Below, piece by piece: positions 55,548 through 58,698 of a stretch of DNA of 64,000 nucleotides. Both the position numbers and the translations under genes were made by a program. Source of the DNA: Acidobacteriota bacterium (GTDB lineage: Bacteria; Acidobacteriota; Terriglobia; Acidiferrales; UBA7541); assembly GCA_003225315.1 (NCBI GenBank), contig QHZD01000029.1, forward strand, positions 1-64,000, written 5' to 3'. Each line of letters opens with the position of its first letter. Positions within the stretch are counted from its first letter, which is position 1. Below the pieces are notes generated by a model that ran no database searches, had not been told where the DNA came from, and saw only the letters and a program-made list of their open reading frames with translations.

Positions 55548-56273
55548 CTAGTGTATCACATTTTCCCTTTCTTGGCTACTAGCTCCCCTCGGCGTCAAGT
55601 ATCGTGGTCCAGCCGTTCCGGCGACCACATCCACGCCGCTGTGCCAGAAAATCGCAGGCATCAGGCTGCCGTACGCGAGTCGGCTCGTCCCGAGAATGAG
55701 GCCAATCAAGAGCGTCATCACAATCCCACCGCGTCCTTGGTAGCTGTGCGCCAGCCCAAAAAGGACGGAAGACAGCAGCACTACGGCCCATGCTGGTAAT
55801 CCAACGTGGAGGAGCACGGCCATGGCGAATCCGCGATAAAGAAACTCCTCGCAGAGGCCCGCGGTCATCGCCAGCGCGAGGTAAGGAAGCAACTCTACCG
55901 TGGATTGCGGCAAAATGCGTTCCGCGATGGCTTGAAGGGATCCCCGTGCTTCGACAGGAATTCTCCCGAGGCGTCGCAGGTTCAGCCACTGAAGAGACGC
56001 GATCGCCGCGGTGCCAACAACTGCTGCGATGAGAATCTTGCTTCTATCAGGGACTATCAGACCAAACTGGGAGGCCGTGAAACCGTGCGCCCACGCGCGC
56101 CATGCTACAGCGGCAACGGCCAGCCATTGAAAGGCAATGGTTGAGGCGTAAAGGGAGAGGCGCTCCATCGTGCTGACGCGTGGCATCGCCAGCAATTTCT
56201 TCATGCGTGCTCGTCCGCGCCAAGGCAGAACGACGCCAAGCACCAGGAAGATCAGCCAAATGTCCCAGGGCAT
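55548..56273 (-). CDS. CPBP-family intramembrane protease
   Basis: A 241-residue integral membrane protein with about seven hydrophobic segments and the CPBP (Rce1-like) motifs: EEFLYRGFAM (motif 1, di-glutamate and Arg), SVLFGLAHSYQGR (motif 2 His) and AIFWHSGVDVVAG (motif 3 His/Asp). Rce1 cleaves prenylated proteins in eukaryotes; bacterial members act as self-immunity or membrane proteases. Substrate unknown. ATG 56273 is the start that begins the first membrane segment; 56330 is possible. It is divergent from selD across about 115 bases. Confidence 0.85.
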   Translation of the reverse strand: MPWDIWLIFLVLGVVLPWRGRARMKKLLAMPRVSTMERLSLYASTIAFQWLAVAAVAWRAWAHGFTASQFGLIVPDRSKILIAAVVGTAAIASLQWLNLRRLGRIPVEARGSLQAIAERILPQSTVELLPYLALAMTAGLCEEFLYRGFAMAVLLHVGLPAWAVVLLSSVLFGLAHSYQGRGGIVMTLLIGLILGTSRLAYGSLMPAIFWHSGVDVVAGTAGPRYLTPRGASSQERENVIH

Positions 56274-56387
56274 CCGCGAATCAGAACACTTTCCCCATGC
56301 GCAGCGCAAGTACGCAAAGGCGCACTGCACGCGAGCACGAAAGGCGGCACATCGCTATAATCGAAGCGCACTACAGCGAGGTGCGGC

Positions 56388-57467
56388 TTGACCCCATCCG
56401 TGAAACTCACGGCCATGGTCAAGGCAGCGGGTTGAGCGGCGAAGCTGAGTCCAGGGTTGCTGGATTCCGTTTTGCGCCGTTTGCCGCGGCCAACTGATCC
56501 CAACGTGCTCGTTGGTTTTGACACCAACGACGACGCTGGGGTGTATCTGCTGAGCCCGGAAATGGCCATGGTTCAGACCGTGGATTTCTTTACACCGATC
56601 GTGGATGACCCGCACACCTTCGGGCAGATTGCGGCGGCAAATTCGCTGAGTGATGTTTATGCCATGGGCGGGAGGCCGGTTTCCGCGCTTTCGATCGTCG
56701 GGTTTCCGGAAAAGGGCGAGCCGGAGATCCTGGAGCAGATTATTCGTGGCGGGCTTTCGAAGATGATGGAAGCAAAGTGCAGCGTTATCGGCGGCCACTC
56801 GATTCGCAATGACGATATTCAGTTTGGGTACGCGGTTACCGGTATCATTCATCCGCAGCGCGTGTGGAGAAATGTCGGCGCGCAAGCGGGGGATGTTCTG
56901 CTATTGACGAAGGCTCTCGGAACGGGAGTGCTCTCCACGGCGCTCAAAAAAGATCGCGCGATAGCGGCGGATTTGGACGCGGCGATCGCCTCCATGACAC
57001 AGTTGAATCGCGCGGCTTCTGAGGCATTGCGAGAAATGCAAGAACAGGCCGGAACGTCGCAGCCGATTCATGCGGTGACGGATATTACAGGATTCGGCCT
57101 GCTAGGCCACGCGCGCGAGATGGCGCTGGGCAGCCCAGAACGAGGAATCGAAGCTGTTTCTCTGGAGGTCGATCATGCTGCGATTTCCTTCTTTCCTGGC
57201 GCCCTCGAAGCCGCGCGCGGAGGATTTCTCCCTGGCGGGCTGAAGAATAACCGCGATTTCATTGGCGATTGTGTTGGTTTCGCTGAGAGCGTTTCACAGG
57301 AATATCGCGACCTGCTCTTCGACCCGCAAACGTCCGGCGGCCTGCTGATTGCCATCTCGCCAGAATCTGCGGATGCCGCGGTCGCCACTCTCGACCGCCA
57401 CGGCGTCGCCGCGCAGCGCATTGGCAAAGTCATCCCAAAGACGAATCCGCTCTTATCCGTCCGCTAG
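56388..57467 (+). CDS. selD: Selenide, water dikinase with in-frame TGA at the catalytic Cys (selenoprotein)
   Basis: SelD makes selenophosphate from selenide and ATP, the selenium donor for selenocysteine and 2-selenouridine. A standard caller would begin at TTG 56457, but the family N-terminus lies upstream in the same frame: TTG 56388 behind GAGGTG, then VKLTAMVKAAG, TGA (56433-56435), AAKLSPGLLDSVLRRLP. The TGA is exactly where E. coli SelD has catalytic Cys17 (GAGCGCK), so it reads as Sec16, followed by the conserved Lys. The rest of the enzyme is complete: FDTNDDAGVYLL, DFFTPIVDD, SDVYAMGGRP, VIGGHSI, DITGFGLLGHAREMA and FDPQTSGGLLIA. Product 359 residues. A SECIS-like hairpin follows the TGA. 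selA, selB and selC are not in the window. Confidence 0.92.
56437..56479 (+). promoter_or_regulatory. SECIS-like hairpin in selD
   Basis: Inside the coding sequence just after the TGA, CGGCG (56437-56441) pairs with CGCCG (56475-56479) and TCCAG (56450-56454) pairs with CTGGA (56460-56464) around the loop GGTTG. The loop begins 19 bases after the TGA and starts with G, which fits the bacterial SECIS rules (short stem, apical loop with an early G, about 16-37 bases from the codon). Confidence 0.65.
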
Positions 57468-57504: not shown

Positions 57505-58698
57505 ATGGACACGATTACACACGGCATCGCTGGGGCGCTGATTGGAAAGGCCGTCTTCCGCGGCGAGGACATGTTCGCCTCGCATCCGATGAACCGCGGC
57601 CGCATCATCACTTGGTCGCTAATGCTCGGCGCGATCTTTCCCGACTCCGATGTGCTCCGCGATATTTTCTCCCACGATCGACTCCTTGTAATTACTTGGC
57701 ACCGCAGCATCACGCATTCGTTGGTCCTGCTTCCACTTTGGGCGTTGCTTCTCGCGGGGATCACGCGCGCGTTTGCCAATCCGCGGAAGTGGGAAGCGCC
57801 GTCATTCCTGGCGCTGACGGGAATTTATGCCGTGGGCGTCCTGAGCCACATCCTGCTCGATCTGGTGACTTCTTTTGGGACGATGATTTGGTCTCCGCTG
57901 CAATGGTCGCGCCCTGCGTGGGACATTATTTTCATTGTGGATTTCACGCTGACCGCGATTCTCCTTGTTCCGCAGTTGCTCGCCTGGGTGTATGCGCATC
58001 CGGAAAAGGAGAAGCGCCGCGCCATTGGGATGTGGCTGGTGTTCCTGCCCACGCCGTTCCTCATCGCGAAAATTGGTGAACGCGTTGGCGCGCCGGTTTC
58101 CGGGCGTGTTGTTCTGGGTGCCATACTTATTTTTGCCGGGCTCTTTCTTTTGCCTGCACTCCTCGGATGGGGCGTGAAGATCCGTCACGACACGTGGAAT
58201 CGGGCCGGTTTCGCCGCGGCGCTGATCTATGTCGCGTGCGCCGCCTACGCGCACCACGTCGCGCTCGTGCGTATTCAGAAATTTGCTGAGCTGTATCCGT
58301 TGCGAGTCGAATCCATCGGCGCGTTACCCCTTCCGCCATCGCTCTGGCACTGGGACGGGCTGGTTCGAACCGAGCGCGGCGTCTACGAGCTGCGCATGGA
58401 CCTTGCCGACAAGCCCGCAAGCGACGGGGAATTGCTTACGCTGGAGCACCACTATTTCCCCGACGCCCCGCCGAATTCGTACATCGAGGTCGCCAAACGC
58501 CTGCCCGAAGTGCAGAAGGTTCTGTGGTTCTCGCGATTTCCCGTAACGCGTTTCCACAAGGAAGGCGATGTCGCCGTCGTGGAAATTGCCGACGTCCGTT
58601 TTGTTCAAGTACGCCGCGACCGCCCTGCAGCCTTCACGTATCGGGTGCGATTCGGCCCAGACGGGAACGTGCTGTCGCAAGGCTGGGCCACGCGGTAA
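57505..58698 (+). CDS. YdjM-like metal-dependent membrane hydrolase (DUF457)
   Basis: A 397-residue protein of the YdjM/YfhO-type inner-membrane family: MDTITHGIAGALIGKAVFRG, LGAIFPDSDVLRDI, WHRSITHSLVLLPL and LSHILLDLVTSFGTMI carry the His/Asp metal-site residues between membrane segments. The first ~260 residues hold about seven hydrophobic segments; the C-terminal ~140 residues form a soluble, probably periplasmic or cytoplasmic beta-rich domain that is an unusual addition. YdjM of E. coli is under LexA control. It begins 37 bases after selD and is likely co-transcribed. Confidence 0.82.
   Translation: MDTITHGIAGALIGKAVFRGEDMFASHPMNRGRIITWSLMLGAIFPDSDVLRDIFSHDRLLVITWHRSITHSLVLLPLWALLLAGITRAFANPRKWEAPSFLALTGIYAVGVLSHILLDLVTSFGTMIWSPLQWSRPAWDIIFIVDFTLTAILLVPQLLAWVYAHPEKEKRRAIGMWLVFLPTPFLIAKIGERVGAPVSGRVVLGAILIFAGLFLLPALLGWGVKIRHDTWNRAGFAAALIYVACAAYAHHVALVRIQKFAELYPLRVESIGALPLPPSLWHWDGLVRTERGVYELRMDLADKPASDGELLTLEHHYFPDAPPNSYIEVAKRLPEVQKVLWFSRFPVTRFHKEGDVAVVEIADVRFVQVRRDRPAAFTYRVRFGPDGNVLSQGWATR

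Follow-up and report, generated by a model that had tools for sequence, protein, structure and literature searches.

This locus raises the question of whether an in-frame TGA close to the start of a selD gene is read as selenocysteine (Sec), and whether the RNA around that codon is under selection beyond what such a reading needs. The window, the whole 64,000-nt stretch of acidobacterial DNA that we analysed, yields under the standard code only a forward-strand selD frame of 336 aa at 56457-57467, starting with TTG 56457. With TGA translated as Sec, the same frame (selD, selenide water dikinase) is open for 359 aa from TTG 56388 to its end at 57467, with the TGA at 56433-56435 as codon 16 and a ribosome-binding site, GAGGTG, at 56378-56383; all of these elements lie where a preliminary description of the window had placed them. 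That description had also held that the conserved SelD N-terminus continues upstream of TTG 56457 in the same frame, and the curated model TIGR00476 (cut-off 125 bits) agrees, since the extended protein scores 355.5 bits from profile position 1 and the short one 331.3 bits from position 20. The alignment to the SelD family that it had recommended, made by phmmer against E. coli SelD (3u0o), puts residue 16 on Cys17, as it had proposed, and Lys19 on Lys20. A score above the curated cut-off and an N-terminal loop that holds both catalytic residues, Cys/Sec and Lys, identify the product by its sequence as a probable SelD. Full-length homology and the catalytic Lys are shared with the E. coli (3u0o) and Aquifex (2yye, 2zod) proteins; however, those chains have Cys where the window protein would have Sec, and the second Cys of the E. 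coli enzyme (Cys19) is replaced by Ala18.

Upstream of the gene, a possible −10 element of its promoter, TATAAT (56356-56361), lies about 32 nt before the start and recurs at a similar position in many of the printed relatives. A promoter scan found no full sigma-70-type site. GAGGTG, GAGGAGG or a similar motif precedes the start in most printed relatives, and four of the six bases of the window's own site are predicted to be paired. The neighbouring genes, with matches to an Rce1-like CAAX protease (55548-56330, reverse strand) and to YdjM (57505-58698, forward strand), have no known link to selenium. An antisense open reading frame (56252-56569) overlaps the start region of selD.

Were the TGA an ordinary stop, the working protein would start at TTG 56457, and the match of the 336-aa frame to TIGR00476 might be taken to favour this. 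Such a protein would nevertheless lack the residues aligned to E. coli Cys17 and Lys20, which is the loss of the active site that had been foreseen for any gene caller treating TGA as a stop. In addition, nine of ten close Sec relatives show only synonymous differences in the codons that precede the TGA, and a TGA or a Cys codon occupies the site in all 109 of the SelD loci that could be scored. We consider the probability of an ordinary stop to be negligible.

The genome (4,975,678 bases in 57 contigs, 97.64% complete) was searched as a whole for selA, selB and selC, as the preliminary description had suggested, and all three were present above cut-off. The match to selA scored 567.3 bits (cut-off 267.9) and that to selB, which has GTPase and SelB winged-helix domains, 364.1 bits (cut-off 242.25); the tRNA-Sec scored 69.1 bits (gathering score 47) and was called tRNA-SeC, anticodon TCA, by ARAGORN. 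These genes lie on three contigs other than that of selD. A fourth contig carries a gene for formate dehydrogenase-N alpha (fdhN; L130, 196-3366, reverse strand; TIGR01553, 1335.3 bits) with an in-frame UGA at codon 194 in the context ARVUHGPTV. Because the fold after this UGA is not more stable than that of synonymous draws (476 of 1000 were as low), an unusually stable Sec insertion sequence (SECIS) was rejected for fdhN and its UGA rests on homology. Inspection by eye of the sequence downstream of fdhN suggested frames for two further subunits, a ferredoxin-like beta and a membrane gamma subunit, and for an FdhE-like protein. Taken together, selA, selB, tRNA-Sec and a second gene with a UGA mark the organism as a probable Sec decoder, with a selenoproteome that would comprise at the least FdhA and SelD. 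The idea that SelD is the sole selenoprotein, kept for its own sake, was accordingly rejected in view of the formate dehydrogenase. A role of SelD in supplying selenouridine or a selenium cofactor found no backing either, as the genome has no match to mnmH (TIGR03167) or yqeB (TIGR03309) at the completeness given above. A second SelD was rejected as well: one protein in the genome scores above the cut-off, and three weaker relatives reach 69.9, 37.5 and 22.8 bits.

To place the TGA among relatives, 110 SelD loci were compiled, 30 from 396 genomes of the phylum (the window's own included) and 80 from named genomes. Codon 16 was TGA in 53 of them and Cys in 56, and one had no N-terminus to score. 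With so many loci sharing it, the TGA is due neither to chance nor to a base error. The preliminary description had named an independent assembly with a Cys codon here as a possible refutation; assemblies from relatives show TGA at this codon, although Cys versions exist within the genus. Among the genomes behind the named loci, selA was above cut-off in 39 of 43, including all 14 with a TGA SelD. The tRNA-Sec was above cut-off in 37 of 44 genomes, own included, and was missed by a stricter-filter search in two of the 15 with a TGA SelD (those behind L050 and L073). To judge by these genes, many genomes with a Cys SelD appear to have retained Sec decoding. FdhN may be the reason: a match to it at E 1e-80 or better was found in 56 of 89 family genomes, and all 57 matches covering residue 194, among the 66 listed, show one TGA in a by-eye count that took no account of its place in each row.

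In a SelD tree of 88 rows, the distribution of Sec and Cys needs 11 changes. We infer that Sec may be the older state, repeatedly lost to Cys; this fits the neighbouring Sec clades in a tree whose root was not inferred. Repeated loss of Sec to Cys in SelD has been reported (Zhang et al., PMC1794560). A reversal from Cys to Sec in L201 and L202, two Sec rows that stand among Cys rows, was unsupported, since a tree holding the 11 Cys rows together was not rejected (AU p 0.355). Seven genomes have two SelD-like matches, both with TGA in G026, G113, G250 and G467 and one with and one without in G016, G069 and G258. The SelD proteins of L061 (titled Betaproteobacteria bacterium) and L074 (Nevskia soli) fall inside acidobacterial clades, and mislabelled or mixed bins are likely. 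In two family assemblies (L066, L205) selD lacks a readable N-terminus, through either decay or assembly error.

Directly after the UGA, the RNA can form a SECIS stem-loop (56434-56482, forward strand) with GGUUG in its apical loop (56455-56459). Folding of the 71 nt that surround the UGA gives −35.9 kcal/mol (z −3.57), and none of 200 shuffles was as low. A 51-nt window at the UGA (−27.2 kcal/mol) is the most stable among the 342 in-frame windows of selD, and 12 of 2000 synonymous draws were as low. Bacterial SECIS elements are described as having an upper stem of 4-16 bp, a loop of 3-9 nt with G in one of the first two places, a spacing of 16-37 nt and an energy of −7.5 kcal/mol or lower (PMC13188914). 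The window element, with an upper stem of 8 bp, a 5-nt loop that begins with G, a UGA-to-loop distance of 19 nt and an energy far below that limit, falls within all of these constraints and is predicted to bind SelB; it departs from the consensus model in its long paired stem and in having two further selected hairpins, one on each side. Over the 109 loci with the site, the mean SECIS fold z was −1.9 in the 53 Sec rows vs. −0.22 in the 56 Cys rows. SECIS elements of Sec-SelD genes have also been recovered by RNAz (PMC4561486). In two Cys-SelD genes, L054 (z −2.13) and L089 (z −3.34), the Cys codon is followed by a SECIS-like hairpin, perhaps a fossil.

Homology across the UGA, the presence of selA, selB and selC, TGA at the same codon in relatives and the SECIS together support what had been claimed at the outset, namely that the organism decodes UGA as Sec and makes SelD with Sec16. 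On these grounds, selD at 56388-57467 is almost certainly a selenoprotein gene, with decoding in the cell and enzyme activity as expected consequences. Ribosomes would initiate at UUG 56388 and arrive at the UGA, where SelB bound to the SECIS would bring Sec-tRNA-Sec; the product would be a selenophosphate synthetase of 359 aa whose catalytic position holds Sec, and failure to insert Sec would release a 15-residue peptide. This is the ordinary part of the finding, as Sec-SelD is common in Acidobacteriota, long known and already on record (PMC13188914). Our search of the open-access literature, to which this statement is confined, found nothing on Acidoferrales with selenocysteine.

The less ordinary part emerged from the close relatives. 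Among seven close Sec rows, none of the 16 synonymous codons after the UGA varies, vs. 221 of 277 later in the gene; among seven Cys rows, all 16 vary after the site and 252 of 278 later. This synonymous freeze in the close Sec relatives extends beyond the SECIS. For a wider view, 89 genomes of the family were searched and 40 further stretches taken, giving 96 scored loci, of which four (L066, L152, L159 and L205) were dropped for want of the site. The remaining 92 loci comprised 71 unique rows: 39 family Sec rows, 30 family Cys rows and two Sec rows from an outgroup order (L072 and L073). The 39 Sec rows give a gap-free alignment of 165 columns. In bins of five codons, their synonymous difference was 0.24-0.31 at codons 0 to +9, within the SECIS, and 0.22 at codons +30 to +39, vs. 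0.60-0.61 and 0.47-0.63, respectively, in Cys rows. The bins between and before these minima were also lower in Sec than in Cys rows, and from codon +50 on the ratio of the two groups was 0.75-1.09. Folding windows in 37 Sec rows gave two peaks that match these minima, with a mean z of −2.2 at 0-6 and of −2.0 to −2.3 at 60-66, whereas 30 Cys rows gave −0.3 to −0.4.

Two further hairpins, both on the forward strand, flank the SECIS. Hairpin A (56387-56423) has a 7-bp outer stem, in which CUUGACC, holding the UUG start, pairs with GGUCAAG, and a 6-bp inner stem of CCGUGA with UCACGG; the start codon has a predicted unpaired probability of 0.04 or less. Hairpin B (56497-56543, that is, UGA+64 to +110) consists of three stems, of 8 bp (inner), 3 bp (middle) and 4 bp (outer), and a loop at 56517-56522. 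Because all three structures derive from the sequence of the window itself, the comparisons of pairing that follow favour its close kin. In the 39 Sec rows 82.6% of hairpin A cells were paired, with a covariation of 0.208 vs. 0.104 in shuffled alignments (0 of 500 as high) and 0.091 for the best slide; in the 30 Cys rows 58.8% were paired and the covariation was at the shuffled level (0.093 vs. 0.096). The paired cells of the SECIS were 81.3% in Sec and 47.8% in Cys rows, although its covariation was weak, with slides −2 and +1 scoring higher. Hairpin B was paired in 89.4% of cells in Sec and 73.1% in Cys rows, with a covariation of 0.133 vs. 0.105 shuffled and 0.113 for slide −3. Because this covariation is modest, the case for hairpin B rests on a synonymous null and the folding profile. 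Without given structures, RNAalifold recovered parts of A, the SECIS and B in the Sec alignment (25 pairs) and three pairs in the Cys alignment; in a set of 21 Sec rows spanning two orders it gave eight pairs, six of which are the apical SECIS stem. No part of the window, these three elements included, matched any of 4227 Rfam families at the gathering score.

In the synonymous null, codons were redrawn from those that the same gene uses beyond this region, with the protein, leader and start codon fixed. Over 300 draws, the 39 Sec rows exceeded it for A (observed pairing 0.826, null 0.728), the SECIS (0.813, 0.577) and B (0.894, 0.707); the corresponding values in 29 Cys rows, with the gapped L067 left out, were 0.589 and 0.603, 0.476 and 0.494, and 0.726 and 0.665. 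Placement in the top 5% of a row's own null was found for A, the SECIS and B in 10, 33 and 31 of 39 Sec rows and in 1, 0 and 5 of 29 Cys rows. We then thinned the alignment to ten Sec and ten Cys rows with a synonymous difference of 0.5 or more, indels disregarded in counting. None of 2000 redraws reached the pairing of A, the SECIS or B in the diverged Sec rows, vs. 1417, 1299 and 40 in the Cys rows. With own-genus rows left out (17 Sec rows; the genus of L059 and L070 is not stated, and their identity to the window is 72% and 64%), the counts were 2, 0 and 0 of 2000, and with one row per distant lineage (10 rows) 10, 0 and 0. Statistically, three stem-loops in the first 160 nt of the family's Sec-type selD are under selection at the RNA level. 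Within the window's family, to judge by the null in the two kinds of row, selection on A and the SECIS is confined to Sec rows, and B is strong there with a small remainder in Cys rows.

The null also bears on the possibility that the UGA is read in some other way, by near-cognate readthrough or by genome-wide reassignment. Readthrough of UGA without Sec has been argued for insect SPS1 (PMC4561486). Here, however, tRNA-Sec, selA and selB are present, the sole alternative at the codon in relatives is Cys, and the SECIS shows selection in TGA rows but none in Cys rows, so that this explanation appears very improbable.

A more substantial objection is that hairpins A and B might be by-products, whether of protein sequence, codon usage or shared ancestry or of an overlapping gene or a DNA site. 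Around B the protein motifs are conserved, the pairing of B in Cys rows exceeds its own null, its covariation is modest as noted, related rows are not independent, and the antisense frame mentioned above overlaps the region. Yet neither the protein nor the codon usage of a gene changes in the null, and the thinned rows and those outside the genus are still above it. An overlapping gene fits poorly with a freeze that is uneven across the region and deepest at two places, and a DNA dyad, which would not favour G-U pairs, with the 53 of 555 B cells that are G-U in Sec rows. In hairpin A, moreover, a base of the untranslated leader covaries with a synonymous lysine position (C-G 21, U-A 8, U-G 6, other 4). 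We regard a by-product as improbable and hairpins A and B as very probably real RNA-level features.

The association with Sec has exceptions. The Sec rows L201 and L202 pair poorly (A 0.54 and 0.46, SECIS 0.50 and 0.40, B 0.47 and 0.47), L070 reaches only 0.55 for the drawn SECIS, and the outgroup Sec rows L072 and L073, at 0.15 and 0.46, do not form hairpin A. The Cys row L158_C, sister of the Sec row L154_U, keeps all of A, 93% of B and 60% of the SECIS, which would fit either a recent change from Sec to Cys or hairpins that are independent of Sec; the two genes form a natural before-and-after pair. Well-supported branches provide three independent contrasts between Sec and Cys, too few to reach significance; in 200 pairings A and the SECIS never reversed direction and B did in a few. 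Hairpins A and B were not seen in Sec-SelD outside the window's family, and at the place of B nothing consistent appeared in other Sec groups. In Terriglobales (L019-L022, L024, L026, L072 and L073) a GUCGGC/GCCGAC-type hairpin was noticed by eye at codons of about +26 to +33, near the place of B and in another register, with little support (mean z −0.57 over nine rows).

Sec-containing bacterial SelD, of which that of Haemophilus influenzae is an example, shares with the window a UGA at the catalytic position soon after the start, a SECIS directly downstream and selA, selB and selC in the genome. The window differs in the UUG start buried in a hairpin and in a second hairpin 3′ of the SECIS, here in one family only. 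The E. coli selAB mRNA carries a SECIS-like regulatory element, which also places an RNA structure close to where a selenium gene begins; there the genes are selA and selB, whereas in the window the stem includes the start codon of selD, and binding of SelB to it would be hypothetical. We found no description of flanking hairpins such as A and B in the open-access literature, a weak absence confined to that literature.

What the flanking hairpins do can be proposed tentatively. When ribosomes load fast, a SECIS may lack the time to refold from one ribosome to the next, and in vitro initiation at the native fdhF start region is poor (PMC4513850). With the UGA at codon 16, a hairpin at the start codon would space ribosomes in selD; A would keep initiation slow, so that the SECIS could refold and reload SelB between ribosomes, and B would guard the SECIS fold from downstream sequence or space ribosomes past it. 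We put forward this role, with A as an initiation throttle, as a possibility a little short of even. The main alternative is that the hairpins regulate SelD otherwise than through SECIS refolding, for example through repression by SelB or another regulator at A. The pairing of the start codon would suit such repression, an E. coli SelB autoregulation system is named in PMC8124441, and L158_C keeps A in full and most of B without Sec. However, the remaining Cys rows show no more than background pairing for either A or the SECIS, and L158_C, next to its sister L154_U, looks like a very recent change; we view this alternative as plausible but rather doubtful. More broadly, the three hairpins might form a control unit that matches ribosome loading to SECIS refolding or to selenium supply, so that SelD would meter its own UGA recoding, and the unit would decay when Cys replaces Sec; our confidence in this picture is likewise somewhat under one half.

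In summary, the Sec reading repairs an annotation that would drop the active site of SelD and adds little to existing knowledge, and the flanking hairpins matter more. The Cys-type sisters serve as a natural control that reveals selection at the RNA level beyond the SECIS, including a hairpin at the start codon. If the hairpins act in recoding, the standing idea that slow initiation aids UGA recoding by giving the SECIS time to refold would become testable in a native gene.
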